Source of the DNA: Rugalucina vietnamica
Lineage: Eukaryota > Mollusca > Bivalvia > Lucinida > Lucinidae
Direction: 5' to 3'
Assembly (NCBI GenBank): GCA_964017185.1
Contig: OZ024876.1
Location: forward strand, 35,950,406-36,014,405
DNA: 64,000 bases
The translations under genes and the position numbers were made by a program. Below the pieces are notes generated by a model. The model made no database searches. It saw only the letters and a program-made list of their open reading frames with translations, and was not told where the DNA came from. Positions 39,920 to 57,794 of the stretch are shown here, in pieces (within the stretch, counting starts at the first letter, position 1; each line of letters begins with the position of its first letter).

Positions 39920-40185
39920 AGTAGTAATGGATGCCACTATAGCCCAAAACTTATAGCCCAAAACTTATAGCCCAAAACTTATAGCCCAAAACTTATGGCC
40001 CAATTTCAAATAAGCGCAGCGCCTGAAATTGGGCCATAAGTTTTGGGCTATAAGTTTTGGGCTATAAGTTTTGGGCTATAAGTTTTGGGCTATAGGTGCG
40101 CACCCTGGGTCTCAGTTTCTTAACTAGCTAAGTTGCATGTGTAGGTAAGTATCCTTGAGTTAAGACAGGGATTTTAAGTAATGTG
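39920..40185 (+). repeat. Polinton left terminal inverted repeat
   Basis: Begins AGTAGTAATGGATGCC. Most of it is a large palindrome: four TATAGCCCAAAACT units, a ~40-bp centre (GGCCCAATTTCAAATAAGCG and beyond), then four inverted units AGTTTTGGGCTATA. A unique stretch GTGCGCACCCTGGGTCTCAG follows. Confidence 0.95.
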
Positions 40186-40189
40186 CAAA

Positions 40190-40217
40190 TAAAGGTTATC
40201 TTTCAGGAATAGTTGGT
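40190..40217 (-). promoter_or_regulatory. Possible histone downstream element of the 40,260 gene
   Basis: On the - strand the stem-loop is followed by ACCAACTATTCC and then TGAAAGATAACC. A GAAAGA core about 13 bases after the hairpin matches the position and sequence of the U7-binding element of animal histone pre-mRNAs. Confidence 0.5.
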
Positions 40218-40233
40218 AGCCCTGAAAAGGGCT
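40218..40233 (-). terminator. Histone-type 3' stem-loop, gene at 40,260
   Basis: On the - strand it reads AGCCCTTTTCAGGGCT: a 6-bp stem with the TTTC loop of replication-dependent histone mRNAs, ending 42 bases after the stop codon, flanked by CAAAC and ACCA. A possible AATAAA overlaps the stop codon as an alternative signal. Confidence 0.7.
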
Positions 40234-40259
40234 GTTTGAGTATTTTGTGAAGTCTGAAT

Positions 40260-40682
40260 TTATTTTGTAGTCTTCTTTCGCTTGGTTGCTTGTATTTCTT
40301 TCTTAGCTATGCCTAATCCTACAGCTGGAGATGATGTAGCCGGTTGGTCGGTATTGATGATGTCTAATCTGATAGGCATTCTGATCGCAGGGAACTGTAT
40401 GCTTGGCATCTGAGCTTGTCGCTGTACTTCTTCTTCCAGTTGTTTGACTTTGGATTTCAACTCATTGAGTTCTTTAACCAAGACATCTATTATCTGTGTT
40501 CTTTGCAGTTGTTGCTGCAACTGTGATGTCTGTTGCTGGTACTGAGAAGTCGCTTGTACTGGTTGTTGATAGTACTGCTGTTGTGTAGTTGCCGTGTCAT
40601 TAGTAAAGACTTCATTACATGCTTGCAGTAATATGTCTGGGTTGTTAATCATATCGTCGAAGCTGATTTGATTCGAAGCCAT
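40260..40682 (-). CDS. Polinton left-arm protein, Q-rich coiled coil
   Basis: A 140-residue protein of unknown function. After an N-terminal MASNQISFDDMINNPD, residues ~34-60 are rich in glutamine. A predicted coiled coil (VKELNELKSKVKQLEEEVQR, ~69-88) follows, and a lysine-rich end KRKKTTK could be a nuclear signal. Its TATA box is at 40,721-40,730 and it is divergent from the gene at 40,902. It ends in a histone-like stem-loop. I do not recognise a family; the layout suggests a small self-associating protein, perhaps a DNA- or virion-associated accessory (inference). Confidence 0.75.
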   Translation of the reverse strand: MASNQISFDDMINNPDILLQACNEVFTNDTATTQQQYYQQPVQATSQYQQQTSQLQQQLQRTQIIDVLVKELNELKSKVKQLEEEVQRQAQMPSIQFPAIRMPIRLDIINTDQPATSSPAVGLGIAKKEIQATKRKKTTK

Positions 40683-40720
40683 GACTGAACATGTATGTAA
40701 AACTTGGACTGTTGAGCTAA

Positions 40721-40753
40721 GCTTTTATACTCACTGAGAGGATTGACCTACTT
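40721..40753 (-). promoter_or_regulatory. Promoter module of the 40,260 gene
   Basis: On the - strand: AAGTAGGTCAATCC, 9 bases, then GTATAAAAGC, about 40 bp before the ATG. The same module precedes the next two genes. Confidence 0.7.
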
Positions 40754-40810
40754 TCTGTCTCATGTTTGTAAAGTCGGCTGTGATTTGTTACTTATACTGG
40801 ACCTTCTGAT

Positions 40811-40857
40811 TGGTTTGAAGTTTAAAGTAGGTCAATCCCCCCAGAGAGTATAAAAGC
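40811..40857 (+). promoter_or_regulatory. Promoter module of the 40,902 gene
   Basis: GATTGGTTT (inverse CCAAT box), AAGTAGGTCAATCC and GTATAAAAGC in order, 45 bp before the chosen ATG. Because transcription should begin ~25-30 bp after the TATA box, the in-frame start at 40,902 fits and an earlier frame opening at 40,860 does not. Confidence 0.7.
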
Positions 40858-40901
40858 AATTGCATTTTGCAGTTCTGTACACTTTCTTCGTGTACAACAA
40901 A

Positions 40902-41348
40902 ATGGCAAAACAGTTTGACTGTGAATGCTACTTGAGGGGTTTGGAGGAGCAGGCAGACAGTATTGGTGGGGCGGCTACTAGCATGTTGGAAGCTATCAAC
41001 ACTTTCAAGAACAGCGCTGAGTCCTTGCAGCGGACTGTGGAGAATCTGAAGACCATGATTGGTATGACAAGAAGTGCTATGAATTTAGCACATGGAGGAC
41101 GGGTTGAAGAGAAGACGGAGATAAAGAGGGAGGCGTTGTCGCCAATTGTATCTGAGGAAGACTGGGATGATGACAGACCCAGTCATAACTACAGTGATCA
41201 GACTGAAGATTGGGGCGCCGAGGCTAACGAGCCGTCCTATAGTTTTGAAGGCAGGAATCTTTCGATTCCTGCCTACAGAACGGTCAAGTTCGATCGTTGG
41301 GGACAGCGCTGTCCTGCCTGTGGGAGTAGATACTGTGCCTGCTCCTAA
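40902..41348 (+). CDS. Polinton left-arm protein with coiled coil and C-terminal Cys cluster
   Basis: A 148-residue protein starting MAKQFDCECY. Residues ~10-70 look helical and coiled (LEEQADSIGG, NTFKNSAESLQRTVENLK). The middle is acidic (SEEDWDDDRPS). The end CPACGSRYCACS has four cysteines in CxxC...CxC spacing, a plausible zinc site. Start chosen from the TATA position. It ends in a perfect histone-type stem-loop 25 bases after the stop. The function is unknown; with its two neighbours it forms a group sharing promoter and 3' end signals. Confidence 0.75.
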   Translation: MAKQFDCECYLRGLEEQADSIGGAATSMLEAINTFKNSAESLQRTVENLKTMIGMTRSAMNLAHGGRVEEKTEIKREALSPIVSEEDWDDDRPSHNYSDQTEDWGAEANEPSYSFEGRNLSIPAYRTVKFDRWGQRCPACGSRYCACS

Positions 41349-41373
41349 TCTGTGGAACATAAATCCACCCAAC

Positions 41374-41389
41374 GGCCCTTTTCAGGGCC
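41374..41389 (+). terminator. Histone-type 3' stem-loop, gene at 40,902
   Basis: GGCCCTTTTCAGGGCC matches the animal histone consensus GGYYCTTTTCARRRCC at every position. It is flanked by CCACCCAAC upstream and CCACA downstream. The downstream purine box is weaker here (GATTGAAATAAC). Confidence 0.75.
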
Positions 41390-41527
41390 CCACATTTCTT
41401 TCCGATTGAAATAACTTTTATTAATGTATTTATGTTGTATGTATGTTGTCTTACGAATATGGTGTGATCTTTGTGGCGTGATCGTATGTGAACTTCTCAT
41501 TGGCTCTGATCAAAACGCATTTGATTG

Positions 41528-41570
41528 GTTCTGATTAAAAGTAGGTCAATCCTAGTCATTGACTATATAA
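41528..41570 (+). promoter_or_regulatory. Promoter module of the 41,607 gene
   Basis: GATTGGTTC, AAGTAGGTCAATCC (41,539-41,552) and TATATAA (41,564-41,570), 36 bp before the ATG. Confidence 0.7.
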
Positions 41571-41606
41571 CATCGTGTTCCGTGCCTCTCTGTACATTCT
41601 GGAACT

Positions 41607-41783
41607 ATGGGGTTCTTTGAAAAATTCAGCTTGAGGAAATTGTGTGCTGCTTTTCACAAAAAAGATTATCGGGAAATTGAGAGGCAACAAAACAAGATGG
41701 GGATACAGATTTTTTTGGCTAGAAGAGGTATTGGTTACTGCAAACCAGTAGCCATTGTAAGACCAATGCCTCGAAAACCTTAG
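41607..41783 (+). CDS. Polinton left-arm small basic protein (58 aa)
   Basis: A short gene of 58 codons starting MGFFEKFSLRKLCAAFHKKD and ending VRPMPRKP. It is basic, with a helical N-terminus. Support is the position rather than homology: it carries the same CCAAT/AGGTCA/TATA module as its neighbours, a good start, and a histone-type stem-loop 26 bases after its stop. A longer open frame on the other strand across the same bases (41,556-41,807) lacks such signals and is judged a shadow. The role is unknown; MGFFEKF could be a myristoylation-type start (G2), which is only a suggestion. Confidence 0.65.
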   Translation: MGFFEKFSLRKLCAAFHKKDYREIERQQNKMGIQIFLARRGIGYCKPVAIVRPMPRKP

Positions 41784-41809
41784 GAATCTCTTGTCTCTCA
41801 TGACCAAAC

Positions 41810-41825
41810 AGTCCTTTTCAGGACT
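41810..41825 (+). terminator. Histone-type 3' stem-loop, gene at 41,607
   Basis: AGTCCTTTTCAGGACT has a 6-bp stem and TTTC loop, preceded by ACCAAAC and followed by ACCAAATCTTCAGAAAGAA. The stem bases differ from the other two hairpins in a pair-conserving way. Confidence 0.75.
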
Positions 41826-42180
41826 ACCAAATCTTCAGAAAGAATACCTTTGTAATATTGGTACTGACCAAATCTTCAGATAGAATATCTTTGTAATAAT
41901 GTTACTGACCATGTCTTCAGGAAGAATATGTTTGAAAGAAATTTACTGACCAAATCTTCAGAAAGAATATCTTTTTTAGAAAAATTGCTGACCAAATCTT
42001 CAGATAGAATATCTTTGTAAGACATTTGCTGACCATATCTTCAGAAAGAAAATGTTTGTAAGAAATTTGCTGACCATTTCTTCAGAAAGAATATCTTTGT
42101 AATTATGTTACTAACTTGTATAATGACCAATATTTCATGACTACCAAATCTCCAGAAAGAATACCATTGTAAGAAACAAC
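41826..42180 (+). repeat. 41-bp tandem repeat carrying a CAGAAAGAATA box
   Basis: About seven units of TGACCAAATCTTCAGAAAGA...ATCTTTGTAAG type begin directly after the third stem-loop. Each repeats the GAAAGA-type box that follows the hairpin. The array lies between two genes that converge. Confidence 0.8.
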
Positions 42181-42327
42181 TAACACAATAAAACATTTTT
42201 TTTCAATTTTAATTTGTACAAACAATTTTTAAGTAAACACATTTGAATAATATAGTCTCTAGAATTATTTGACTAATACAGTCTCTTAGAATATTTTGAC
42301 AACAGTCACAGCTCATAACTTAAAAAA

Positions 42328-43095
42328 TCAGTTCAATGTCAATTTACTCAGTGATTTCTTCAGCTCTTCTTCTGGATCAAGAACAATTTCTTCACAGTTC
42401 TTAGCATTATGAGTCTTTGATTTACAGATGAAGCAATATTTCCTCTTAGGAATTCTTCGTTTCGTCTTCTTTGGCTCAGCTGTCTTCTCTACTTTTCGCT
42501 GCTTGCTTGGAGTCGGCTCTGACACATCTTCATTCTCATCGCTATCAGAATAATCTACCAGTCGCCGTTTGTTTGTCTTTTCTACCACTGCAGTTGATTC
42601 AGTTGATGTTGAAATTTTCTCTGCTTTTGTCTCATCTTTCTGTGGACACTTTGAAGCCCAGTGATCGAACGAACCGCACTTGAAACATTGTCCATGTGCT
42701 GGTTTTCCATCTGGTTGTTCTCTAGCAAGCTTTAGTTTCAAACAATCGCTGGCCCAGTGTGTTGTTTCTTTACAGTAGTAACATTGTCCAAAAGGTGGAA
42801 CAAGTTTTCCTTGTGCCTTCAGCATATCTTCTAATGGTTTTAGCTGTTGAACTTCATCTGTAGTGAGAAGTTTCTTCAAAGATATGAAGTGGTAGTAGAT
42901 ACTCTTAGTCTCACTGCTCATAGTTGAATCCATGTTTACTCTTTGACGATTTGAAGTAGAATGATTCTGTGAGTCTGTGTCGTCGACTTTATACCCTGGC
43001 GCAGCATGCGTAAAGGTACCTTTCATCAATGATCTTTGTTGATAGTAGATACTCTTTGGGTCATTGAATTTTTCTTTTCTTGGATCTTGTGACAT
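42328..43095 (-). CDS. Polinton left-arm protein with three CCHC zinc knuckles
   Basis: A 255-residue protein. Three CX2CX4HX4C knuckles are visible: CYYCKETTHWASDC (~101-114), CFKCGSFDHWASKC (~137-150) and CFICKSKTHNAKNC (~221-234), a fold that binds single-stranded nucleic acid. The stretch NKRRLVDYSDSDENED (~179-194), a basic signal followed by an acidic serine-rich tract, also occurs at the start of the polymerase of this element. It ends SKLTLN, an ending shared with the next gene upstream. TATA-like ATATAAAAAAC lies at 43,141-43,152. Likely a nucleic-acid-binding accessory protein (inference). Confidence 0.8.
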   Translation of the reverse strand: MSQDPRKEKFNDPKSIYYQQRSLMKGTFTHAAPGYKVDDTDSQNHSTSNRQRVNMDSTMSSETKSIYYHFISLKKLLTTDEVQQLKPLEDMLKAQGKLVPPFGQCYYCKETTHWASDCLKLKLAREQPDGKPAHGQCFKCGSFDHWASKCPQKDETKAEKISTSTESTAVVEKTNKRRLVDYSDSDENEDVSEPTPSKQRKVEKTAEPKKTKRRIPKRKYCFICKSKTHNAKNCEEIVLDPEEELKKSLSKLTLN

Positions 43096-43140
43096 GTTGC
43101 TTGTTCAGATTTGAAATGATAATGTGAGTCTGTTCTCCCA

Positions 43141-43152
43141 GTTTTTTATATG
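43141..43152 (-). promoter_or_regulatory. TATA-like box of the zinc-knuckle gene
   Basis: On the - strand CATATAAAAAAC, about 46 bp before the ATG and directly after the end of the preceding gene. Confidence 0.5.
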
Positions 43153-43153
43153 T

Positions 43154-43540
43154 TCAGTTCAGTGTCAGTTTGTCGATTGCAGAAATGAGATCTTCATATT
43201 CCATATCTTCCTCCTCACAATCTCTTCGAATATCTGTCAGTATAGATTCTAGATGAGAAATCACGCCGTCGTTATTGGCAACGTGAGTTAGCCAGTGGAG
43301 ATAAGTTATCGGACTGTCATCAATGAGTCTCCACATTTCATTTGCAATTTTTCTGCACCAATATTTGAAAGTCCCAAATGTTTCCAATCTGTTCAACCAC
43401 ATATTGATACCTTCTCTTGTTTTCAAAAATTCAGCATCTGTTGGTTCTAATGACAAAGTGTGTTGCAAAGCACACTTGTACACGTCAAACTGTAAGATCT
43501 GATCCAAACATACGGGTAGACTCTTTGTAATGCTGTTCAT
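43154..43540 (-). CDS. Polinton left-arm protein, second of an overlapping pair
   Basis: 128 codons starting MNSITKSLPVCLDQILQFD and ending in EEEDMEYEDLISAIDKLTLN. Its ATG overlaps the stop of the preceding gene as ATGA, which argues for coupled translation of two separate genes. Rich in helix-forming and aromatic residues (WLNRLETFGTFKYW), acidic at the end. The last residues KLTLN recur at the end of the zinc-knuckle protein. Family unknown. Confidence 0.65.
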   Translation of the reverse strand: MNSITKSLPVCLDQILQFDVYKCALQHTLSLEPTDAEFLKTREGINMWLNRLETFGTFKYWCRKIANEMWRLIDDSPITYLHWLTHVANNDGVISHLESILTDIRRDCEEEDMEYEDLISAIDKLTLN

Positions 43541-44241
43541 GATGTATATCCGAGCAGGTATCTGGAATAACTTGTTGGATACTGCAGCGTCACTTGATTG
43601 TCTGCTTGTGTCTCGAACAACTTCCAGTTTCCAAATGATACCATGTCTCCATCTTCTTGCTTTATATTGTCTAACAGTCTCCAATTCAAGCAAAGTTCAC
43701 TCGCAGGTCTAATATGAAATGTTGATTTGGTTATTCCTAACATTCTAAGGCATAATAAATGCGGTCGACATAATAATTTATGGACTTGGCATCTGTTCAT
43801 TTCATGATTTAGTAAGACATATCCATGGTACGTACTCCCTTCTGCAGAAATATATCCTATCATGAAATGGTCCTTTAAGCCGTGATGAAGTATTGGTTCA
43901 AATCCCAGATCACGATAAAATGACCATGTTATTCTCCACAGCTTGGTTGATGTCAACGTAAATATATTACGTTTATGTAAGTCATAAATTGCCGTGTGGA
44001 ACTTCGTTCTCATTTCATCTGTCAGGTTTGGCAATTGATCTATGTCCAGTAACATTCGCACCAATTCTCTGTGATAAGTTTCCCGAGATCTTGTAGACAA
44101 AGCTCTCTGTAGTCTGGGGAAGTTGACTTTAAACCACGCCTCTTGTATGTTCCATTTGAATGCGAGTCCTTTTGCAGATGAATGCATCAAGTAGCTGAAA
44201 ATATTTTCTTGGATTTCTGGTGGTATGTAGACTTGAGCCAT
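43537..44241 (-). CDS. Polinton left-arm protein with F-box-like start
   Basis: A 234-residue protein starting MAQVYIPPEIQENIFSYLMH. The PPEIQENIFSYL stretch has the spacing of an F-box first helix (LPxE-x4-IFSYL), the part that binds Skp1 in ubiquitin ligases. The rest (AWFKVNFPRLQRAL, LWRITWSFYRDLGF and so on) is not recognised. F-box proteins are known in several large DNA viruses, so host protein targeting is conceivable; with only one helix visible this is tentative. TATA at 44,271-44,280. Confidence 0.6.
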   Translation of the reverse strand: MAQVYIPPEIQENIFSYLMHSSAKGLAFKWNIQEAWFKVNFPRLQRALSTRSRETYHRELVRMLLDIDQLPNLTDEMRTKFHTAIYDLHKRNIFTLTSTKLWRITWSFYRDLGFEPILHHGLKDHFMIGYISAEGSTYHGYVLLNHEMNRCQVHKLLCRPHLLCLRMLGITKSTFHIRPASELCLNWRLLDNIKQEDGDMVSFGNWKLFETQADNQVTLQYPTSYSRYLLGYTS

Positions 44242-44270
44242 GATTCTACAAAATGAATAGTGTGAAATTG

Positions 44271-44280
44271 TCTTATATAG
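44271..44280 (-). promoter_or_regulatory. TATA box of the F-box-like gene
   Basis: On the - strand CTATATAAGA, about 30 bp before the ATG. Confidence 0.55.
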
Positions 44281-45233
44281 CAGTAATAATACTTATGCAT
44301 ACGTTTGCGCATGCGCAATACGTAATAATTATTTTCAAGATATGAACGTTACGAAATACTGAAACATATGCAGAAAGAATTTCGAGAATCGATCAAGTCA
44401 TTATAAAGTTACTGTAAATTTTAATTTCTAGATTTTACTTTTCTATTTTGCGCATGCGCAGTAGAACAAAATTTTATTTTGAAATTAAACGTACTTGAGA
44501 TATCCTACCATATGCAAAAATAATTATGTTAATCGGATCAGTACTTTAGAAGTTAGGTTTTTTAAAAGCTAATACTTGTTATTTTCAGTTTTTACACAGT
44601 TGTTACCCTTGTAAACGTTATATGTCAATATTAACTTTAGTACCTTAATAGCTTTACCATTTGACTGTGTATCAACATGAAATGTTTTGTAACATGTTTT
44701 AAACTTATTGTCATATTTATTTTTATGTAAATTATCATAGCTGTTGACTTACTTTAGTAGAAAAAATATGTTTAACTTGTCCATGCAAATACTCAAACCC
44801 AATTTTACTACGTAGGACAAAGTGATCCCTATATATAGTTTTTCACAACTTCTCAAAATTAGCTCAGCTCAGAGTTACCAGTTATTTGGAAGGTTATACC
44901 GCTTCAGCCCGTAGATATGAAGATATTGAACAAGCATTTAGAGGCAGGGGTGTGGAATGATATATCAGGCCACATCTAAGGGCGCTAGCTTGGCTAGAGA
45001 ATTGTAATAGGCCCCGCCTCAGAAACGGTCCGGTGCATGGTTCACATTCGGGTGTTTCACTTGCAGTGGATATCTTCATCTCGCCAGGGATTCTGAAGTG
45101 CAGGGTAATCCCAATATGATAGCTGGGGATTTGTGGTAGACCAACAAGGTCGATCAGTTGTGAGACTGGCCATATTTCTTGCAGTCAGGCGAGACAACAT
45201 TTTATTAAAAATTTGTCATGTCGCGTTCCTAGG
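44281..45233. promoter_or_regulatory. Divergent intergenic region with two NRF-1-type palindromes
   Basis: TGCGCATGCGCA occurs at 44,306-44,317 and 44,449-44,460, matching the NRF-1 consensus YGCGCAYGCGCR. No convincing gene was seen in the remaining ~770 bp. The region separates the leftward accessory genes from the rightward polymerase. Confidence 0.5.
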
Positions 45234-45242
45234 TATATAAAG
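45234..45242 (+). promoter_or_regulatory. TATA box of the polymerase gene
   Basis: TATATAAAG, 56 bp before the chosen ATG. Confidence 0.6.
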
Positions 45243-45297
45243 CTGAGACAATCTGGTATTCTGAATTCATTCATTGAATAAACTTCGAAGATTCAAC

Positions 45298-45928
45298 ATG
45301 GCAAATAAACGAAGACTGGTAGATTATTCTGATAGCGAGGAGAGTGAAGATGAGATGATGAGGTCACCACCCGGTAAAAGGCAGAAAGTGTCTGATGACA
45401 AATATTTTGATATCAAGCTGAAGAGAGAGACTGAATCGAGATTGTTCAGATCGAAAGCCAGAATTTACGAAGTGGATGTGAAGAAATTTCCCGAAGATGT
45501 GTCACCACTAGAGTTTGTTCCAAAGCTGTTTGATGACTTGGTGGAAGCTATCAAGATACAGTGTAAAGTGGCGGGCGATGACAAAATCCGTATGACTGTC
45601 AACCATCCAGGCCTGAAGTTGGGAGTATTTGTGACATGGCGTGATGTGTCCTCGTTGACTGGAGAAATCATCCTACAAGAAATTGAGAAAGTGATGCAAT
45701 CCAATGACAATTTCAAGATCAACGATGGACAGATGAGAATTGATGTGACAACATGTAGTCTCCCTACTGGTGCTGGAAGAAAACCACTTCACCATGGACT
45801 GTATTTCGAGTCAGAGACCATGAGACAGAACAAACGAAGTATTGTCCAGATCAACAATACAGACGACGTGATGTGTATGGCCAGAGCTGTGGTGGTGGGG
45901 AAATGTAATGCTGACAAAGATGATTCAG
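45298..45928 (+). CDS. Polinton DNA polymerase B, N-terminal exon
   Basis: About 210 codons starting MANKRRLVDYSDSEESEDEM. The start carries a basic-acidic motif shared with the zinc-knuckle protein. The remainder (VDVKKFPEDVSPLEFVPKLF, KLGVFVTWRDVSSLTGEI, VMCMARAVVVGKC) resembles the N-terminal region that precedes the polymerase in Polinton pPolB proteins, where the terminal-protein function is thought to lie. The block ends at a GT donor and is separated by about 170 bp, ending in a pyrimidine-rich tract and AG, from the main block; introns are known in this gene in some Polintons. The ATG was preferred over an upstream TTG. Confidence 0.8.
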
Positions 45929-46095
45929 GTTAGGTTCTTGTAAAAAACTACTTTAAACTTTTTTACATGTTTATATGTTTGCATCTTATGTACGCTTTCA
46001 TAATTTTTGATGACTGAGACCTATTGAAAAAATATCCAAAACATATGTTTCCTTAGTACTTGATTGTTTAGTTCTTTTCCAATTTCCATTTTCAG

Positions 46096-49000
46096 ATAGT
46101 TGGAAGAAAAACTGGAAGTATATCAGAGATTCTGATCGTCCGATGCAGACTCGGGAAGCAAAGAAGTTACTGGATCAAGCTAAGATTCCTCACGACAAAG
46201 TCTGTGGTATTGAGGAATACAAGAAGATCCAAGATGTTCTAGCTCCAGACTACCTGATCAAAGTCCATTCACAACATCCTAAGGATGGACTGATCTTTCC
46301 ACTACAGTTCAAGAAACAACGAGAGACGAAAGTCATTCATCTGTACTGGAATGGGGACAAACACTACGATACAGTAACCAAGGTGACGGGGCTAATGGGC
46401 TGTCAGTACTACTGTGAGTATTGCGATGTCGGCTACACTAACAGAGGAGCTCACCGATGCAATGATGGTTGTGATGGTTGCTATAGTGACATTCCATGTA
46501 TACCTGGACAGAAAGTCAAATGTGTTGATTGTAAGAGAACTTTTAAAAGTCAAAGTTGTTTTGATAATCATAAGGCAATTAAGGGTAATCAGAAGAAATC
46601 TATTTGTCAACTTGTATACAATTGTGAAAAGTGTTCACGTCGTATCATAGGTAACAAAAAGAATCATGTATGTCCTGGTAATAGAAAGTGTAAGATCTGT
46701 AAGGAAATTGTAGGTCCAAATCATCAATGCTACATTCAGAAGTATGTATCAAAGAAAAATGTATCTAAGACAGCAGATTCAGAGTCTGAGGAAAGCGAAG
46801 ATGAAGAGAAATCAACAACTGGTCCGAAATTCGTCTTCTTCGATTTCGAGTCATCTCAAGAAACTGGAGAACATCAAGTCAACTTTTGCGTGGCACAAAG
46901 AGCTTGCGATTACTGCATAGATCTACCCAGCGATGAACACTGTCCAGGCTGCAGTGCGTTACCAGGGGGACGAGAAGTTATCTTTGAGGGAACAGATACG
47001 CTATCTAGATTTTGCGCTTGGATACTGGGAGACGATAACAAAGGAGTGACATGCATTGCTCATAACTTTGGTGGATACGATGGACAGTTCATCTTGAGAC
47101 ACATCTTGGAAAATGGGACAATGAAACCTGACGTGATCATGAATGGAAATACTATTATGAGAATGAGAATAGGCAAAGTGACTTTTCTGGATTCCTACTT
47201 GTTCCTGCACATGAGACTTGCCAATTTCCCAAAGACATTTGGATTGAAAGAAATGAAGAAAGGCTACTTTCCTCATCTTGCCAATACAGAAGCCAATCAG
47301 GACTATGTAGGACCTTACTTCCCTGCAGAGATGTACATGCCAGGACAGATGTCAGAAAAGGATAGGACCGAATTTTACAAATGGTACAACGAAAAGGTAG
47401 AGTCTGGAACGATCTTTGACTTTAGACGAGAGATGGAAGAATATTGTCGGAGTGATGTGGATATATTGAGACGTGGATGCGGGAGTTTCAGAAAGATCCT
47501 GAAAGATATCAGTGGTTTAGATCCTTTGATGGAATCCTGTACGATTGCCCAAGCCTGTTCCAAAGTCTGGAGAAAGAACTACATGCCAGAAAACTGTGTG
47601 GCCATCATTCCTCCAGAAGGATATCCAAACCAGAAAAACTACTCGATCAAAGCAGTGAGATGGATTCAAAGTATAGCAAAGGAACAAGGGGTAGAGATAC
47701 AGCATGCATTGAATGGAGGAGAAGCTAGGATTTGTGGACACTGCGTGGATGGTTATCACAGAGAATCTAGAACTATCTACGAGTTCCATGGATGTTATTG
47801 GCATGGTTGTCCAACACATTTCCCAGATAGAGAGACGATTCACAAACAAAGCTGTCAGACGATGGGACAACTGTATACTAACACCAACTACCTGATGCAG
47901 AAATTCAAAGACAATGGATACCTCGTGATCGAGATGTGGGAATGTGAATATGACAAAAGGTACAAAGAGGATGAAGAATTCAGAAAGACTGTGGACTCTC
48001 ACTTTACCAACTTAGATCCATTGAGACCAAGAGATGCTTTGTTTGGTGGGCGGACCAATTCAACAAAACTCTACCATGAAATCGACGAGACGTCACAGGA
48101 TGAAATCAAGTACATTGATGTTTGTTCCCTGTATCCAACCGTATGCAAGTATGGACTGTTTCCCTTGGGTCATCCAACCATCCTATCTCAAGAAAATGTG
48201 GACAAAGACAATATTGAGCAATATGAAGGACTGATCAAATGTAAGGTATTGCCTCCTAGAGACTTGTTTCATCCTGTACTTCCTTACAAATGTAACAATA
48301 AACTCATGTTTCCCTTGTGCAGAACTTGTGCAGAAAGATGTGATCCCTCACAAAAGTGTACACATTCAGAAGACGATGAAAGGGCACTAGTAGGGACTTG
48401 GGTTAGCATTGAGTTAAAGGCTGCATTAGAAAAAGGATATGAATTACTGGACGTGTATGAAGTGTGGCATTTCCCGGAGACGACACAGTATGACAAGAAA
48501 ATTGGCGAGGGTGGTATCTTCACGAAGTACATCGATGTCTTCTTGAAAGTCAAGCAAGAATCGAGTGGCTATCCCGAATGGTGCAAGACCGAAGCTGACA
48601 AGGAAAAATTCATACGTGATTACTTTGAAGCAGAAGGAATCTCATTAGAAGAAGTAGAGAAAAATCCCGGACTGAGAGCTATAGCCAAGATTATGTTGAA
48701 CAGTTTGTGGGGTAAGCTGGCACAGCGTGAAAAAATGACAAAGACTGATTACATATCTGACCCAGCCAAATATTTTGAACTGATAACAAATCCATCTAAG
48801 ATCGTGAAGAATGTAGACATATACGGAGAAAGATTTGTACACGTGAACTGGGAAGAAACAGACAATCTTGTTGAACCTCACACTTGTAGCAATGTGATTG
48901 TAGGTGCATTTGTGACGGCACAAGCTAGGTTGAGATTGTACGATAAGTTAGATAAACTGGGATCAAGAGTATTGTACTTTGACACGGACTCAATCATCTA

Positions 49001-49400
49001 CGTTCACGAACCAGACGAATGGAATCCAGAAATTGGGGATCGTCTTGGTGAATGGACTGATGAAGTACCAGATGCAAGAATTGTGAAATTTGTTGGTATG
49101 GGGCCTAAGAACTATGGGTATGAGTATGTGGAGAAAGATGGACAGAGGAAATCTACATGTAAAGTGAAAGGATTGACACTGGACTATAACACGTCTCAGC
49201 TGATACATTTCCATCAGATGTTAGAATGGTCAAAGTCTGAAAGTAGGAACTTTTCAGTAACTGCCAAGTACAATAGAATCAAAAAGCACAGTGATAGGAA
49301 AGTGACAACTGAGGAACAAACAAAGACTTATAAATTCACGTACAATAAACGCGTGGTTCTCGTTAAAGGATACACGGTACCCTATGGATATGATTTGTAA
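46096..49400 (+). CDS. Polinton protein-primed DNA polymerase B, main block
   Basis: About 1,100 codons that copy the element by protein priming. Counting from an internal Met at 46,143: Cys/His-rich clusters (~80-200); the 3'-5' exonuclease with FFDFES (~231), HNFGGYDGQF (~305) and YCRSDVDIL (~434); polymerase motif A DVCSLYP (~659), motif B KIMLNSLWGK (~849) and motif C FDTDSI (~945), with KVKGLTLDY after it. All catalytic aspartates are present. The length and the Cys-rich N-terminal part fit Polinton rather than host PolB. It is first in the rightward gene set. Confidence 0.93.
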
Positions 49401-49695
49401 GAGACTGAACAAATATGAACTGAACAAAAGTTGAACAGAATGATATGACTTGAACACACAAAGTATACAAGTTGACAAAAAGGTTTTTTTGTCGAAGTTT
49501 TTTTTTTTTGCAAATGTTAAATAATGTTTCACAAAATTGTTTCCACAAAAGTTTTTTGCAATTGTTTGATGTTAATTTAAAAAAATATTGTTAGGTGACA
49601 AGTTGTAAATTTTTTTAGCAAAAACTTTTTCTAGGTTGTCAAAAGTTGTCAATTTTTTTTGCAGACATTTGTTTTGTCATGCAATTAAAAAAACA
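49401..49695. other. Intergenic region, T-rich
   Basis: Low-complexity sequence with repeated TTTTTTGCAAA, AGTTGTMAATTTTTTT and similar; no gene seen. Confidence 0.5.
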
Positions 49696-49702
49696 TATAA
49701 AA
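49696..49702 (+). promoter_or_regulatory. TATA box of the ATPase gene
   Basis: TATAAAA, 57 bp before the ATG. Confidence 0.5.
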
Positions 49703-49758
49703 ACACATGTCTTTCTTGTTCTTTCATCAGTTTGTTACACAGTTAAACAGTCACGGTC

Positions 49759-50448
49759 ATGTCGGCTATACAAGTTTTACAACAAGATATTGGTAGTTTG
49801 TTCTTCAAACATACTGCCAATATCTTTATATCTGGTCCTAGTGGTTCTGGAAAAACGGAATTTGTTAAGAAAATGATTGAATACAAAGAAGATTTGTTTG
49901 ACATTCAACCACAACAAATTGTGTGGTGTTACAAAGAATGGCAATCTGCCTACAATATCCTGCAAGAACGTGAAGGATCAAACATAAAATTCATTCTCGG
50001 CATCCTAGATGACGAGGATGACATCGTCACTGATGTCAGTGTACCACACTTAGTCATCTTTGACGATATGTTGGGAGACAAAGATGAAGAAAAAATTAAG
50101 TTATGGTTTACGAGAAAAGGACATCATAGAAATGCGAGTTTGGTCTACATCACACAAAACTTATTTCAACAAAGCAAATCATCCCGCACGATTAGTTTGA
50201 ATGCTCATTATCTGGTTTTGTTCCAAAGTCCAAGGGACAAAATGCAGATCAAAGTTCTTTCCAATCAACTGCAAACACCACATATGATTCCTGCCTTTAA
50301 CGATGCAACATCAAAACCTCATGGTTACTTACTGGTCGATTTGAAACCAACCACACCAAATTACTTGAGATTGAGAACAAATATTTTTCAACACTGGTTT
50401 ACAAAATCAGATCAATCGGGACCAGTGGTTTATTTTCCAAGCGTATAA
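49759..50448 (+). CDS. Polinton genome-packaging ATPase (FtsK/HerA type)
   Basis: A 229-residue protein expected to pump DNA into capsids. Walker A GPSGSGKT (~25-32), Walker B HLVIFDDM (~97-104) and a polar TQNLF sensor stretch (~135) are in the order of A32-like packaging ATPases. The length is normal for Polintons. Its last codons GTA TAA lie in the sequence GCGTATAAAAGGG, so the stop codon falls within the TATA box of the next gene. Confidence 0.93.
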   Translation: MSAIQVLQQDIGSLFFKHTANIFISGPSGSGKTEFVKKMIEYKEDLFDIQPQQIVWCYKEWQSAYNILQEREGSNIKFILGILDDEDDIVTDVSVPHLVIFDDMLGDKDEEKIKLWFTRKGHHRNASLVYITQNLFQQSKSSRTISLNAHYLVLFQSPRDKMQIKVLSNQLQTPHMIPAFNDATSKPHGYLLVDLKPTTPNYLRLRTNIFQHWFTKSDQSGPVVYFPSV

Positions 50449-50451
50449 AAG
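50444..50451 (+). promoter_or_regulatory. TATA box overlapping the ATPase stop codon
   Basis: TATAAAAG; the TAA stop (50,446-50,448) lies within it. It is 37 bp before the next ATG. Confidence 0.6.
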
Positions 50452-50487
50452 GGTGTGTTTGGTTTGACATTGATCAGTTTAGTCATC

Positions 50488-51285
50488 ATGGCTGTAGGGA
50501 AAACATCTGCTAACTTGATTCGTGCACTTTACAATTTGAGCAAAGAACACGATGCTCAAAAACGAAAAACTTTGCTTAATGCAGGTTTAGCTGAAATGAT
50601 CAAATGGTTTTCATTAGCAGCTCGTAAAATCATTGAGGGAAAAATGAAATTGCCTAAACAAACTAAAAACTTCATGGATAGACATAAAGATGATGTTAGA
50701 AAATTAGCAAGTGCAATGACAGATCCAGAAGTGAAACGTAGTATCATTCTAAAACCAGGCGGTGGTGGTTTCTTTGGTGGTGTAATTATCAGAAGTTTGA
50801 TTCGATGGGATGGTACTAAACTCTTAAGACGTAAAAGATCAACTCCCAAGAAATCTAAATCTAAAAAAAGGCCTGCCAAAAAATCCAAAAAACGTATCAA
50901 TGATAAATTTGTGACTAAAAGAAGAAATAAAAAAAGTAAATCTGTAAGTCCTAATTCACCAGCAGTAGGTACAAGTTGGCAAAATCTAGGAATGTCTTCA
51001 CCTGATGCCAATGCAAGACGAATGTCTTTGTCAGTTGCAAGATTTTCACCACTTAGAATTTCACCAAAACCAATTGTTTCACCTCTGAATTCAAAACAAC
51101 GTTACATCATGCAAAACAGTCCTACATTTCAGAAACGACACGGAACTATTCCATACATGCACTTGTTAGATCCAAAAGAGTTTGTCATGAATGATCAAAC
51201 TGCATTTCCTTCTGATGTTGAAAGAATAAAAAGAGCAAAACAAGAACTTGTAAGAAGAACTGCTAAGAAACGACTTTTATTTTGA
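50488..51285 (+). CDS. Polinton basic protein, longer paralogue
   Basis: A 265-residue protein starting MAVGKTSANLIRALYN. The N-terminal ~110 residues are helical and end in the block KRSIILKPGGGGFFGGVIIR, resembling the basic, glycine-rich capsid-core peptides (adenovirus pX-like) of Polintons. The middle is a long run of Lys/Arg/Ser, as in DNA-condensing proteins, and the end is again basic. The N-terminal half has the same plan as the next gene, suggesting duplication. The ATG is set by the TATA box; an upstream GTG in frame is disregarded. Probably packed with DNA in virions (inference). Confidence 0.75.
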   Translation: MAVGKTSANLIRALYNLSKEHDAQKRKTLLNAGLAEMIKWFSLAARKIIEGKMKLPKQTKNFMDRHKDDVRKLASAMTDPEVKRSIILKPGGGGFFGGVIIRSLIRWDGTKLLRRKRSTPKKSKSKKRPAKKSKKRINDKFVTKRRNKKSKSVSPNSPAVGTSWQNLGMSSPDANARRMSLSVARFSPLRISPKPIVSPLNSKQRYIMQNSPTFQKRHGTIPYMHLLDPKEFVMNDQTAFPSDVERIKRAKQELVRRTAKKRLLF

Positions 51286-51295
51286 AAAACAAAAC

Positions 51296-51303
51296 TATAA
51301 AAG
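51296..51303 (+). promoter_or_regulatory. TATA box
   Basis: TATAAAAG, 47 bp before the ATG of the shorter paralogue. Confidence 0.55.
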
Positions 51304-51349
51304 CTCAATGTCAACTAAATTTTGACACAGTTTGCAAAATTGCATCAGC

Positions 51350-51754
51350 ATGGCAGCTACTAAAACAAAGCGTCGTACTAGAAAAATATTAAAGAAAAAA
51401 AGTTTAATCAAATCGTATGGTTCTTTTCTTGAAGGACTGACTCATTTACCACCTAGATGTCGTCAAAAAATGATCAATGATTCACCTAAAGAAGTCATCG
51501 ACTCAGTCGGTGAATGTTGCCTGAACATTATAAAAGGCAATGTCCGTTTGACAAAAGCTCAAAAACAAAAATTGCAAGCTCGACAACGTCACATACGTTT
51601 ACTGAGTTCAAAGCAAGTGTCTGTGCCAGATAAAAAGAAAATTATCAATCAGAAAGGAGGTGCACTGCTCGGTTTATTACTAAAACCTTTGCTTGCTCCC
51701 ATTGTTGGTTCAGTACTTGGAAGTCTCCTCAATTCTCATCATGGAAGGGCGTAA
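51350..51754 (+). CDS. Polinton basic protein, shorter paralogue (pX-like)
   Basis: A 134-residue protein starting MAATKTKRRTRKILKKK. A helical region (SFLEGLTHLPPRCRQKM) and VRLTKAQKQKLQARQRHIR lead to KKKIINQKGGALLGLLLKPL and a hydrophobic end LAPIVGSVLGSLL. Basic stretch, GG and hydrophobic tail form the pattern of Polinton and adenovirus small core or membrane-active peptides. The last 14 nt overlap the start of the next gene in another frame. Confidence 0.78.
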   Translation: MAATKTKRRTRKILKKKSLIKSYGSFLEGLTHLPPRCRQKMINDSPKEVIDSVGECCLNIIKGNVRLTKAQKQKLQARQRHIRLLSSKQVSVPDKKKIINQKGGALLGLLLKPLLAPIVGSVLGSLLNSHHGRA

Positions 51755-52580
51755 AATGGCCATTGTTCCATTTAAACTTTGGGAAGACATGAAACGCTGG
51801 AAAGAAGAACAAATTCAAAAACCTAGATTACCACCTAATCCAAATGTGTCTGCCACAGCAAGTCTTCAGAGAGACTTATCTTCGGTCATGGCTGACGAAG
51901 ACATGTCCGAAGCTGAAAAAGCTCAATTATTTGGTGAAACTTTACACAAATTTCAATCGGCTCACAAAAAAGCTTTGCAAGATCAATCTTTAAAATTACC
52001 AAGTGTAATATCCAGTTCCTCTAGAATGAACCAACTTGTATTAGATAGTGTACCTAGCACGATGAAACGAAAAGCACAACTTTTACTTAACATTTTAAAA
52101 GATAATCCAAACATGACTTGGGATGATGATGGTACCGTAAAACTTTATGGTAAAGCTATTGAAGGATCTAATATCATTGACTTGGTCAATGATGTTTTAA
52201 GACATAGAAAAGGCAGTGAACCCACGGGATGGCAACCGTTTGCTGAAGGGTTAAGAGAAATGAATATTCCTCAAGATGTAATTGGAAATAGGGAAAGATG
52301 GGAGTGGATGCATCGGGGCGTATCTCCTAGAACTCCAGATGACAATTATGTCACACCAGCCCAAAAACGTGTTTCGACAGCACGTAAACGTGCAAGTCGT
52401 ATTCCCGTTTCTAAGAAAACAACTAAAAGAAAAGTCAAATCAGAATTTACACCGTCCGAGCTAGCAAAAATTAAAAAACAGTTGTATTCTCCTTTGTCTG
52501 CCACAAAAAGTTATATAAAAGAAGAAATGTCTACGCCAAAGTTCCAACCCAAACAGTGGCTCACTTACGATGATCAATAA
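51741..52580 (+). CDS. Conserved Polinton protein of unknown function
   Basis: A 279-residue protein starting MEGRKMAIVPFKLWEDMKRW. The central block (STMKRKAQLLLNILKDNPNM, GSNIIDLVNDVLR, PTGWQPFAEGLREMNIPQDV) is a pattern I associate with a conserved Polinton protein found near the integrase. The C-terminal third is basic (RVSTARKRASRIPVSKKTTK). Start chosen at the first ATG; its stop codon overlaps the next start as TAATG. It may act with capsid-core proteins, but nothing in it shows a reaction. Confidence 0.75.
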   Translation: MEGRKMAIVPFKLWEDMKRWKEEQIQKPRLPPNPNVSATASLQRDLSSVMADEDMSEAEKAQLFGETLHKFQSAHKKALQDQSLKLPSVISSSSRMNQLVLDSVPSTMKRKAQLLLNILKDNPNMTWDDDGTVKLYGKAIEGSNIIDLVNDVLRHRKGSEPTGWQPFAEGLREMNIPQDVIGNRERWEWMHRGVSPRTPDDNYVTPAQKRVSTARKRASRIPVSKKTTKRKVKSEFTPSELAKIKKQLYSPLSATKSYIKEEMSTPKFQPKQWLTYDDQ

Positions 52581-53650
52581 TGAATTTCGACAAATTGTAT
52601 TATGATCCAAAAAGTCCTGCAGGTTATGCTGGTGAACAAGCTTTGTACACGCTTGCTAGAAAATCTTCTAAAAATGTCAAATTGAAAGATGTCAGAAATT
52701 GGTTGAAAAAACAACAGACCTATACTTTACATAAACCTATCAGAAGAAAATTTTTACGTCGTAAGACTGTGGTTGCAGGAATTGATCATCAATGGCAAGC
52801 CGATCTAGCAGACATGTCAAAAATGTCAAAGTCCAATGATAAGTTTAGATATCTGCTTTGCATTATCGATGTGTTTTCAAAATTTGCATGGGTTGTACCC
52901 ATTGCAGACAAGACGGGAAAAACTTTAGTAAATGCATTTAAACTTGTGTTGAAAAATGGGCGTCAACCAAAAAGTTTGCAAACTGACAAAGGTACAGAAT
53001 TCAAAAACAGAGACTTTCAAGGTTTTTTAAAATCTAAGAAAATTCATTTCTTCACAACTGAAAACCCAGAAACAAAAGCAAGTATTGTTGAAAGATTCCA
53101 AAGAACTTTGAAAAGTCGCATGTGGAAGTATTTCACGCACAATCGCACTTTGCGATATGTCGATGTTCTTCCAAAATTAGTCGAAGGTTACAATCATGCA
53201 TATCACAGAAGCATCAAACGTGCACCTGTTTCTGTGACAAAAGAGAATGAACCTCAAGTGTCTGAAATTCTTTTTGGCAAACCTAAAAAACTGCAAAAAC
53301 AAACTAAAATCAAAGTAGGTGATTATGTTAGGATCAATAAAACTAAACGCACATTTGACAAAGGATATCTGCCAAATTGGACACAGGAATTGTTTCAGAT
53401 TTCTGATGTGGTGAAAACGCAGTTTCCCACCACCTATAAAATAAGAGATCTCGATGGTGAATCTGTCAGTGGTACATTCTACTCTCAAGAGTTACAACGT
53501 GTCGAAAAAGATCAGATTTTTGAAATCGATTCGGTCCTAGCTCACAGAAAACGCAAAGTTGGAAAAAAGTGGGTTAAAGAAATCAAAGTACACTGGAAAG
53601 GATATCCATCTAAATTTGACAGTTGGATTCTAGAGTCTGATCTTGTATAA
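52580..53650 (+). CDS. Polinton integrase (RVE) with chromodomain
   Basis: A 356-residue enzyme that inserts the element and makes the 6-bp duplication. The catalytic triad D75 (WQADLAD), D136 (LQTDKGTE) and E171 (SIVERFQ) gives the D,D35E spacing exactly. The N-terminal part has a possible small domain, and the C-terminal ~50 residues (FEIDSVLAHRKRK...IKVHWKGYPSKFDSWILESD) are a chromodomain with the aromatic cage positions, as in chromointegrases that bind histone tails. The end GTA TAA again lies in a TATAAAAG sequence. Confidence 0.95.
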   Translation: MNFDKLYYDPKSPAGYAGEQALYTLARKSSKNVKLKDVRNWLKKQQTYTLHKPIRRKFLRRKTVVAGIDHQWQADLADMSKMSKSNDKFRYLLCIIDVFSKFAWVVPIADKTGKTLVNAFKLVLKNGRQPKSLQTDKGTEFKNRDFQGFLKSKKIHFFTTENPETKASIVERFQRTLKSRMWKYFTHNRTLRYVDVLPKLVEGYNHAYHRSIKRAPVSVTKENEPQVSEILFGKPKKLQKQTKIKVGDYVRINKTKRTFDKGYLPNWTQELFQISDVVKTQFPTTYKIRDLDGESVSGTFYSQELQRVEKDQIFEIDSVLAHRKRKVGKKWVKEIKVHWKGYPSKFDSWILESDLV

Positions 53651-53653
53651 AAG
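53646..53653 (+). promoter_or_regulatory. TATA-like sequence overlapping the integrase stop codon
   Basis: TATAAAAG with the TAA stop inside it. Only one base separates it from the next ATG, so a start ~30 bp downstream would miss that ATG; it may serve a later start, or be chance. Confidence 0.35.
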
Positions 53654-53654
53654 C

Positions 53655-53960
53655 ATGAAAATGGATTTTAGAAGTTCATTCAATCGCAGTGGTGATAACA
53701 CTTCTGTGCAATCATCTGCAGACAGTAAAACCAAAATAGCTAAAAATCCTTTAACATTTTTCACTCAGATCATTGTAGTATACATGATAATCATCACATC
53801 TCTAGTTCACATCAGTTTGAGAAGTCCAGATAAAGAATTGTGGTTGATTTTACTCAGCAGTTCGATAGGGTACATTTTGCCATCACCTGGCCTCAAATTC
53901 AGAAAACAACAATCTCTGTCTTCTTCTAGTGACGAACTTTCAAAAGAAGTAAAACCATGA
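53655..53960 (+). CDS. Polinton small two-helix membrane protein
   Basis: A 101-residue protein starting MKMDFRSSFNRSGDN. Two hydrophobic segments (FFTQIIVVYMIIITSLVHIS, ~36-55, and LWLILLSSSIGYILPS, ~63-78) predict two membrane spans with a polar, serine-rich tail. A short hydrophobic protein directly before the minor capsid gene is common in Polintons; its role is unknown. Its TGA stop overlaps the next ATG as ATGA. Confidence 0.7.
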   Translation: MKMDFRSSFNRSGDNTSVQSSADSKTKIAKNPLTFFTQIIVVYMIIITSLVHISLRSPDKELWLILLSSSIGYILPSPGLKFRKQQSLSSSSDELSKEVKP

Positions 53961-54802
53961 AAGATTTTTACTTGACATTACTCAGCGATAGTTGTTTGAA
54001 CACTTTTCCAAGTAACAAACAATCCAACTTTACGGTACGTTTAGATCATCCAATACAAATTGACAAAGAAAATTGGGAAGTTGCTCTTGCAGAAATTATC
54101 ACTCCTGCAGAAATTTTAAATATTTCGGATGCCAACAATTTTTTCTTTCTGAGATTAACCGAACAAGCTGCAAAGAGACTCAAATTGTCCAGTGATGAAA
54201 CAGAAGTATGCACGGAAAAAGATTTATGTGTAGAATATCGACTACAAATTCCAAATTCTAATTACACCTCTGCACATCACTTAATCCACGAGATGCAAAA
54301 AGTGATCGATGCTAGTTTCAAAACTGCATTGGACACAGCTAATCACTCAGTCACTCTGTCATATGGAAATAATAGCAAACGTACAAAAGTACGTTTCGTG
54401 GGAGAATATAAAAATGAAATGCATTTGATGTTTCCACAACCTTTGGCAGAAATTCTAGGCGTGGATAAAACATTCTTTGGCAAACCCATAGGAAACGATA
54501 AGTATCAGTTCAAATATGGTGTAGATTTAAATACACATAGCAATCGTTTCTATGTATACTCAGATGTGGCAAACTACACTTACATCGGAGACGTTACTGC
54601 ACCTATACTTAGAGTTATTCCTTTCAAATACATCCAAGGAGAAATTCATTTTCATCAAGAGTTTTTGAATTTGCATTATGTGCCTGTTGCAAAATCTTAC
54701 ATTGATCAAGTTCACATTAGTATAAAAGGCGATACAGGTGAAGATATTCCATTCATTACTGGAAAGACGTTGATCAAGTTACATTTCAGACCCAAAGAAT
54801 AA
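53957..54802 (+). CDS. Polinton minor capsid protein (penton, single jelly roll)
   Basis: A 281-residue protein starting MKDFYLTLLSDSCLNTFPSN. The N-terminal pattern, a short strand then FPSNKQSNFTVRLDHPIQ and ENWEVALAEIITP, is the signature of the Polinton penton protein, which fills the five-fold vertices of the capsid. It lies just before the core peptide and major capsid genes, as is usual. The length is normal. Confidence 0.9.
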   Translation: MKDFYLTLLSDSCLNTFPSNKQSNFTVRLDHPIQIDKENWEVALAEIITPAEILNISDANNFFFLRLTEQAAKRLKLSSDETEVCTEKDLCVEYRLQIPNSNYTSAHHLIHEMQKVIDASFKTALDTANHSVTLSYGNNSKRTKVRFVGEYKNEMHLMFPQPLAEILGVDKTFFGKPIGNDKYQFKYGVDLNTHSNRFYVYSDVANYTYIGDVTAPILRVIPFKYIQGEIHFHQEFLNLHYVPVAKSYIDQVHISIKGDTGEDIPFITGKTLIKLHFRPKE

Positions 54803-54810
54803 TAAAAAAA

Positions 54811-55245
54811 ATGCGTACGCGTGGAACAATTTGTCAATATGGGTCGGGATTCAACGATTATCCCGTCTATCGTGGTGTTTCAAGACAATATGGAAATGGT
54901 TTAGGATCAATCTTTAAAGCTGCTTTGAGAACAGTTACTCCAATTTTAAAACCTTTAGCAAAAGTTGGCATACAGAGTGCAAAAAAAGTAGCAAAAGATC
55001 ATGGAATTAAAGCTTTGAGAGAAATTGTTAAAGGTCAGAATGTCAAACAAGTTTTAAAACATAGAGGAAAATCAGCATTGAAATCTTTTGGTCAGTCTAC
55101 AATCGATCAGTTCTCAGAGGGTATAAAATCAAATCAGAAATCCAAAAAGCCTCAGTCCAAATCTAGACATCGACCTGTTCACAAAGGCAGGAGAACACTT
55201 ACAAGAAAAAATCTTAGATTTCCACCAGATTTTTTAAGTAAATAA
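54811..55245 (+). CDS. Polinton protein VI-like or core protein
   Basis: A 144-residue basic protein starting MRTRGTICQYGSGFND. After a Gly/Tyr-rich start comes a helix with alternating character (GLGSIFKAALRTVTPILKPL, ~30-49), then KKVAKDHGIKALREIVKG and a long basic tail. This resembles the capsid-interior, membrane-active proteins placed between penton and major capsid in adenoviruses and Polintons (adenovirus protein VI position). The resemblance is by pattern only. Confidence 0.7.
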   Translation: MRTRGTICQYGSGFNDYPVYRGVSRQYGNGLGSIFKAALRTVTPILKPLAKVGIQSAKKVAKDHGIKALREIVKGQNVKQVLKHRGKSALKSFGQSTIDQFSEGIKSNQKSKKPQSKSRHRPVHKGRRTLTRKNLRFPPDFLSK

Positions 55246-55251
55246 AACAAA

Positions 55252-56556: not shown

Positions 56557-56560
56557 GAAG

Positions 56561-57178
56561 ATGCATCAGGGCTATTACATTGAGAAAGACCTGGAATACC
56601 AAGCAGACGTATACAGACAGACATTCTCGTCACATAAATCCGACGAACTAAGTGCCTTACAGAAAGAAGTGGAAGGACAAGATGTGAAAAGAGAAAACTT
56701 TCTCGTCAAAGCTGTATTGATGAATCTGAGAGAAGGTGTCAGAGACTATGTTCGACATGAATGTCAGGGATGTAGAATTGACCATCCAAGTCAGAAATAC
56801 CACGATATGTGTCTATGGACCACTGCAGAAGAATGGATCACTGACTACAAGTACCATGAACCAGCTTTAGAATGCCTCAACATCTTCGATGTCCTCGAGG
56901 ATTTTGATGATCTCATGTGGGAACACATGATGGGATCACAGAGAAAGTCCATAGAAGCTGTCCATTTACTAACTCCAGAACTCACCAATGAAGTATATAA
57001 AGACTGGCAGTATTTCAAAAACAATCAGAGAGACATGACAGATCAGTGGAAGACATTCTGGGCCAATAAACTGTTAGAATCATTCCAAGAAGCAACAGCA
57101 GCTGAAGAAGAAAGAACAGCTGAAGAAAACAACAAAGAACAAGATTGTCCAGAATCATCTCCACCAACAGAAAATTGA
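56561..57178 (+). CDS. Polinton protein with a Cys/His cluster, unknown function
   Basis: A 205-residue protein starting MHQGYYIEKDLEYQAD. The centre CQGCRIDHPSQKYHDMC has two Cys, two His and a Cys at spacing able to hold zinc. The end is acidic and low in complexity (EERTAEENNKEQ). It lies between the major capsid and protease genes, five bases after the capsid stop and two before the protease ATG, so it is probably co-expressed with them. I do not recognise a named family. Confidence 0.75.
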   Translation: MHQGYYIEKDLEYQADVYRQTFSSHKSDELSALQKEVEGQDVKRENFLVKAVLMNLREGVRDYVRHECQGCRIDHPSQKYHDMCLWTTAEEWITDYKYHEPALECLNIFDVLEDFDDLMWEHMMGSQRKSIEAVHLLTPELTNEVYKDWQYFKNNQRDMTDQWKTFWANKLLESFQEATAAEEERTAEENNKEQDCPESSPPTEN

Positions 57179-57180
57179 AA

Positions 57181-57759: not shown

Positions 57760-57794
57760 ATATGTTGTTGTTAAGAGTTACATTGTAAACGAGA

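Follow-up and report, generated by a model that had tools for sequence, protein, structure and literature searches.

The left arm of a Polinton in the bivalve Rugalucina vietnamica contains three small genes with histone-gene-type signals at both ends, and sequence comparison with the host histone genes and with sister copies of the element shows that these signals are conserved among copies. The promoter element AAAGTAGGTCAATCC and the 3' hairpins are both shared with the host, so that the three genes copy histone-gene signals at their start as well as at their end. We consider it very likely, with a probability of about 85%, that these left-arm genes follow the regulatory plan of the host replication-dependent histone genes, through SLBP/U7 3'-end processing and expression limited to S phase. 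As both the start and the end signals match those of host histone genes, the three genes are probably switched on while DNA is being copied.

The Polinton and its left-arm genes

The window, meaning the whole 64-kb stretch of DNA analysed (C8:35950406-36014405), comes from a genome of 1.09 Gb in 47 contigs. An earlier note on this DNA had placed the three genes in a Polinton, and they do lie in an 18.6-kb element bounded by terminal inverted repeats (TIRs) and a 6-bp target duplication (Table 1). The inverted repeats comprise 222 nt (99%) and an additional 46-nt pair, the 26-nt termini are identical, and TCGGTA is duplicated at 39914-39919 and 58528-58533. Genes for a type B polymerase, rve integrase, ATPase, protease and capsid were all identified. 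Pfam matches above the cut-offs were obtained for the type B DNA polymerase (DNA_pol_B_2, 166.4 bits), the integrase (rve, 49.3 bits, with a chromodomain, Chromo, 29.6 bits) and the A32-like ATPase (Pox_A32, 24 bits; cut-off 22.8), while the adenain-like (adenovirus-like) protease matched Peptidase_C5 at 18.4 bits, below the cut-off of 21.3. For the capsid gene Pfam gave no match, and the name rests on relatives annotated 'F54H12.2-like' in the bivalves Mercenaria, Saccostrea, Ostrea and Crassostrea, a name that we take to be a mark of Polinton capsids. With Polintons/Mavericks and adintoviruses the element thus shares a type B polymerase, an rve integrase with chromodomain, an A32-like ATPase, a capsid gene, TIRs and a 6-bp duplication, as well as an adenovirus-like protease, for which the match here is the one below the cut-off.

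Two further features of the element were observed. Each terminal repeat holds a palindrome (39937-40095 and 58352-58510) with perfect 72-nt arms and a 15-nt spacer, built mostly from 14-nt units; the Rfam matches to miRNA families at these positions are the palindrome itself. In addition, a 51-nt stretch in the zinc-knuckle gene (42525-42575) recurs inverted, at 90%, in a 211-aa gene (45302-45352), and the similar peptide in both genes suggests a duplicated segment.

Genes 1-3 are small, with a single ORF each. Genes 1 and 2 are divergent, with an inverted pair of AAAGTAGGTCAATCC between them. The gene 1 product has no Pfam family above its cut-off, and a protein search returned 35 proteins, its own cluster counted in. 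Gene 2 has 57 protein relatives, and its predicted structure is one long N-terminal helix, with low confidence in the middle and at the end (pLDDT 59.8). No histone family is present among the Pfam matches (E <= 0.1) of the three products, in line with the view of the earlier note that none resembles a histone. Our guess is that they are early proteins for the replication phase of the element.

Table 1. Position of the Polinton, its left-arm genes and their putative regulatory signals in the window.
Feature	Position	Strand	Basis or remark
Polinton/Maverick element, 18,608 bp	39920..58527	.	inverted repeats, target duplication, core genes
Terminal inverted repeats of the Polinton	left ~39920-40185; right ~58264-58527		inverted repeats I1 and I13
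GAAAGA, histone-downstream-element-like box of gene 1	40199..40204	-	seen also behind gene 1 hairpins of sister copies
Histone-type stem-loop of gene 1, AGCCCT TTTC AGGGCT; CAAAC before, ACCA after	40218..40233	-	Rfam Histone3, 33.3 bits
Gene 1, 140 aa, Q-rich, probably coiled coil, basic tail, no known family	40260..40682	-	ORF
AAAGTAGGTCAATCC promoter element of gene 1	40740..40754	-	same 15-mer as host H2A/H2B; TATAAAA 40723-40729
AAAGTAGGTCAATCC promoter element of gene 2	40824..40838	+	same 15-mer as host H2A/H2B; TATAAAA 40849-40855
Gene 2, 148 aa, long N-terminal helix (residues 8-63), C-terminal cysteine cluster	40902..41348	+	ORF
Histone-type stem-loop of gene 2, GGCCCT TTTC AGGGCC	41374..41389	+	Rfam Histone3, 27.6 bits
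AAAGTAGGTCAATCC promoter element of gene 3	41538..41552	+	same 15-mer as host H2A/H2B; TATATAA 41564-41570
Gene 3, 58 aa, basic, no known family	41607..41783	+	ORF
Histone-type stem-loop of gene 3, AGTCCT TTTC AGGACT	41810..41825	+	Rfam Histone3, 29.1 bits
41-nt tandem unit, 6.7 copies, repeats flank and box (ACCAAATCTTCAGAAAGAAT)	41826..42102	+	repeat finder
GAAAGA, histone-downstream-element-like box of gene 3	41838..41843	+	sequence match

Histone-type signals at both ends of the genes

In the histone 3'-end pathway, SLBP and U7 direct processing, and the mRNAs have no poly(A) tail and are limited to S phase. The consensus form of the stem-loop (RF00032) is a 6-bp stem with a G-C second pair, a U-A closing pair and a 4-nt loop starting with U. 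The hairpins behind genes 1, 2 and 3 all have this form. They lie 26, 25 and 26 nt after the respective stop codons, each on the sense strand of its own gene, and the differences between the three stems are paired, with the loop and the T-A closing pair constant. At genes 1 and 3 the hairpin is followed by ACCA and, 12-13 nt further on, by the purine-rich box GAAAGA; gene 2 lacks GAAAGA and has GATTGAAA. These results confirm the description in the earlier note, which had placed the hairpins about 25-27 bases past the stops and had claimed paired stem changes around a fixed loop and T-A closing, and ACCA followed by GAAAGA 12-13 bases on at two of them. The 3' flank of the gene 2 hairpin reads CCACA in the window copy and ACACA in 17 close copies, and the 41-nt tandem array begins at the first base after stem-loop 3.

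Chance hardly accounts for such hairpins in the window: perfect hairpins with a 6-bp stem and a 4-nt loop number 44 in the 64 kb (simulated mean 24.3), of which exactly three are of the form T[TTTC]A, all at genes 1-3, against a mean of 0.17 and a maximum of 2 in 60 Markov-1 simulations. They are also the sole matches to Rfam Histone3 in the window, with E-values of 8.6e-6, 3.2e-4 and 1.2e-3 over 4227 families (from the best to the weakest score), so the claimed resemblance to histone 3' ends stands, though all three score below the gathering score of RF00032 (34 bits) and a default Rfam search therefore lists none of them. The folding-energy z values (-2.05, -2.66 and -0.77) are unremarkable taken alone. 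Since these values are modest, energy by itself does not single out the histone pathway, and the hairpins could instead be DNA or generic RNA structures, such as replication, packaging or termination signals, that do not depend on SLBP and U7; the equally strong conservation of further noncoding sequence in the left arm (see below) would also fit. We give this explanation very little credence, because the orientation of the hairpin tracks that of the gene in all three cases, because the loop start, closing pair, flanks and downstream box match those of host histones, and because a structural role does not predict a common histone promoter element.

As at the 3' ends of replication-dependent histone genes, no poly(A) signal was found near the stops. 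AATAAA does not occur within 400 nt of the stop codon in any of the three genes; ATTAAA is found 186 nt past the gene 2 stop and AATAAA 404 nt past the gene 3 stop, and gene 1 has neither motif in 600 nt. The two more distant signals would be expected if the histone-type elements were inert relics of old captured histone flanking DNA and the genes were really polyadenylated downstream. We regard this as improbable: gene 1 has no such signal in 600 nt, and inert relics would hardly have retained promoter and 3' end alike in all three genes.

The promoter side, on which the earlier note had not remarked, is the second line of evidence for the histone-type plan. AAAGTAGGTCAATCC occurs exactly three times in the window, each time 5' of the TATA box of one of the three genes, and is absent from the 45 kb of the window beyond the Polinton; a CCAAT/ATTGG box is likewise present at each gene. 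In the host, H2A and H2B each have this same 15-mer, again just 5' of the TATA box. Upstream of host H4 there is a partial reverse core, TGACCTACTTT, and the upstream regions of H3 and H1 in the histone repeat examined contain no AAAGTAGGTCAATCC. The element did not occur once in the 211,351 bases of further host sequence compared, much of which is one tandem array. It is likely to be a cis element of the H2A/H2B genes in the host animal.

Given the identity of this element with that of H2A/H2B, genes 1-3 might be thought to be host genes hit by an insertion or very recently picked up, with wiring that is simply that of the host, and the sister copies, known from 1.7-kb pieces and not from complete Polintons, would agree with this. 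We judge it extremely unlikely. The genes lie within the terminal repeats in the window, and gene 2 has 53 matches in its own genome, spread over many contigs and some of them decayed (~40-60% identity). Moreover, when the left arm and the histone repeat were compared by short words, AAAGTAGGTCAATCC and the hairpins were the strongest matches and all others were <= 14 nt. Because the similarity is limited to the elements themselves, the origin of the histone-type signals leans towards convergence or old capture.

The host histone genes provide the reference for these comparisons. A family search located tandem histone repeats on contig C29 and more units on contigs C9 and C10. A 6.7-kb stretch (L074) contains five histone genes, all five with a Histone3 match (35.2-37.2 bits) and none with AATAAA or ATTAAA within 300 nt of the stop, and the RF00032 form given above fits all of them. 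Their loops are TTTT (H2A, H2B, H3), TATT (H4) and TTTC (H1), so that the Polinton loop is that of host H1 and differs from the TTTT or TATT of the other four. The first stem pair is G-C in all five host genes, in contrast to the A-U of Polinton genes 1 and 3. Host H2A, like gene 2, is without GAAAGA. In loop start, closing pair, AAC and ACC/ACA flanks and downstream box, the Polinton hairpins agree with the host histone genes.

Conservation of genes and signals among sister copies

Among the 53 genomic matches of gene 2, 33 are full-length and free of stops, the window copy included. The sample consisted of 1.7-kb pieces of 17 of the 32 other full-length copies, together with three distant, decayed copies. 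Hairpin 1 is identical in 15 of the 17 close copies (L059 and L064 both have a TATC loop), hairpin 2 in 16 (the loop is TTTT in L054) and hairpin 3 in 15; L056 has one stem change in hairpin 3 that breaks a pair, and the alignment of the L060 piece ends after gene 2, with no hairpin 3 seen. Among the distant copies, hairpin 2 is retained in L065, where its loop is TTTT, and hairpins 2 and 3 are both unchanged in L067. The single hairpin of L066 has a TTTA loop, a mismatched first pair and a stem unlike that of hairpin 3; the remaining hairpins of these three were not found or are decayed. The earlier note had named absence of the hairpins from related Polintons as evidence against its reading, and within this genome the outcome is divided: the 17 close copies keep them, and the three distant ones have lost some. 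Histone3 matches in 8 of 20 sister pieces scanned number 18, ranging from 22.3 to 34.6 bits. Sixteen of these are below the Rfam cut-off; the other two, one hairpin each in two of the eight copies, are gene 2 hairpins in L064 (34.6 bits) and L065 (34.5 bits, TTTT loop). As to the promoter element, 16 of the 17 close copies have an exact AAAGTAGGTCAATCC at both gene 1 and gene 2. At gene 3, 2 copies match it exactly, 12 differ by one change and 3 gave no match; one copy (L055) has no exact AAAGTAGGTCAATCC at any of the three genes.

Divergence was calculated as the mean pairwise value in an alignment of 18 copies. It is 0.013 for stem-loop 1, 0.007 for stem-loop 2 and 0.008 for the 27 nt past stem-loop 2, compared with 0.10, 0.13 and 0.25 for the stop-to-hairpin spacers of genes 1, 2 and 3 and a median of 0.066 for 570 noncoding 16-mers. 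Relative to the adjoining spacers, divergence is thus lower by a factor of 8 in hairpin 1 and of 18 in hairpin 2. Stem-loop 3 has a value of 0.069, which we attribute to misaligned copies with indels. Some noncoding sequence is more conserved than the hairpins: the promoter region that genes 1 and 2 share contains several invariant 16-mers. In gene 2 the divergence is 0.23 at codon position 3 versus 0.068 and 0.043 at the other positions, and all three genes are most variable at third codon positions. From the contrast between hairpins and spacers and between codon positions, we conclude that the proteins and the regulatory signals have both been under selection.

The altered loops of stem-loop 1 (two copies) and stem-loop 2 (one), the broken pair of stem-loop 3 (one) and the hairpins lost from the distant copies are what decaying remnants of captured histone DNA might be expected to look like. 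Against this, hairpins 1 and 2 have each changed far less among copies than the spacers beside them, and an altered loop is tolerated in the host histones themselves (TATT in H4).

Other collections yielded little for comparison. Searches of a viral contig collection with the polymerase, gene 2, a gene 2 alignment and a capsid alignment returned no Polinton. Two gene 2 matches there were rejected, one with phage-like ORFs (L001) and one dropped alongside as the same match (L002), and neither has an Rfam match; two hits to the hairpin pattern (L003 and L004) both lie within ORFs of unrelated proteins and were taken as chance. A genome contig collection gave a decayed piece of a mussel Polinton (L036) in a record labelled as the MAG of a Bathymodiolus bacterial symbiont, where it is presumably host contamination. 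It has no left-arm genes recognised among its ORFs and no Histone3 match, and is uninformative either way.

Relation to known systems and proposed regulation

The Polinton genes share with metazoan replication-dependent histone genes (RF00032) the 6-bp stem, the 4-nt loop, the flanks, a short ORF and a TATA box, and in addition the lack of AATAAA nearby, a purine-rich box (in two of the three genes) and the promoter element of host H2A/H2B. They differ in that their products are non-histone and that they reside in a mobile element. To our knowledge, 3' ends of the histone type are considered almost confined to histone mRNAs. PMC5011920 describes the stem-loop with the HDE as the hallmark of histone mRNAs. 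We found no description of histone-type ends or histone promoter elements in Polintons or adintoviruses in a literature search that covered subscription papers thinly, and neither 'stem-loop' nor 'polyadenyl' occurs (0 occurrences each) in the main text of PMC11071296.

Two other histone-type ends were observed in the host genome. Histone3 matches on contig C5 were considered as a host histone cluster, and this was rejected on translation, which gave a non-histone array. The array (~38.078-38.24 Mb; sites L005:1154-1474, L008:2639-2959 and L040-L043) consists of tandem units of ~1.39 kb encoding a 106-aa non-histone protein without a Pfam family, and in the loci examined a histone-type stem-loop and a AAGAAAGA box lie 3' of the ORF. 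Like the Polinton genes, its units have a non-histone ORF, a TATA-like box and a histone stem-loop, the box in this case being AAGAAAGA. Unlike them, the units are near-identical host units, AAAGTAGGTCAATCC does not occur in the array loci examined, and 28 of the 29 loci examined carry a C-A mismatch in the stem. A histone-type 3' end on a non-histone gene of the host would be striking on its own. Separately, an isolated histone stem-loop (32.2 bits) with a CAAGAAAGAATAACC box is located on contig C3 (L006/L035 ~4561-4606; C3:43574560-43574605, - strand); no histone ORF was recognised nearby, and it is preceded by the end of a short acidic ORF.

By analogy with histone mRNAs, we infer that the mRNAs of genes 1-3 are non-polyadenylated and coupled to S phase. 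In the proposed mechanism, host SLBP would bind the stem-loops of the transcripts, U7 snRNP would pair with the downstream box, and the pre-mRNA would be cut 4-5 nt past the stem and receive no poly(A) tail. Acting jointly, promoter and 3' end would restrict the mRNAs to S phase, with decay when replication stops, and the products would be timed to when the DNA polymerase of the Polinton can use the replication conditions of the cell. It is quite probable that this bivalve Polinton lineage has a three-gene S-phase regulon that mimics host H2A/H2B at promoter and 3' end, and it would be the first virus-like element known to express non-histone genes by the histone mRNA pathway. If this is true, poly(A)-selected RNA-seq would miss genes 1-3, expression of the element would be synchronised with host DNA replication, and an integrated DNA element would follow the S phase of its host without a regulator of its own.
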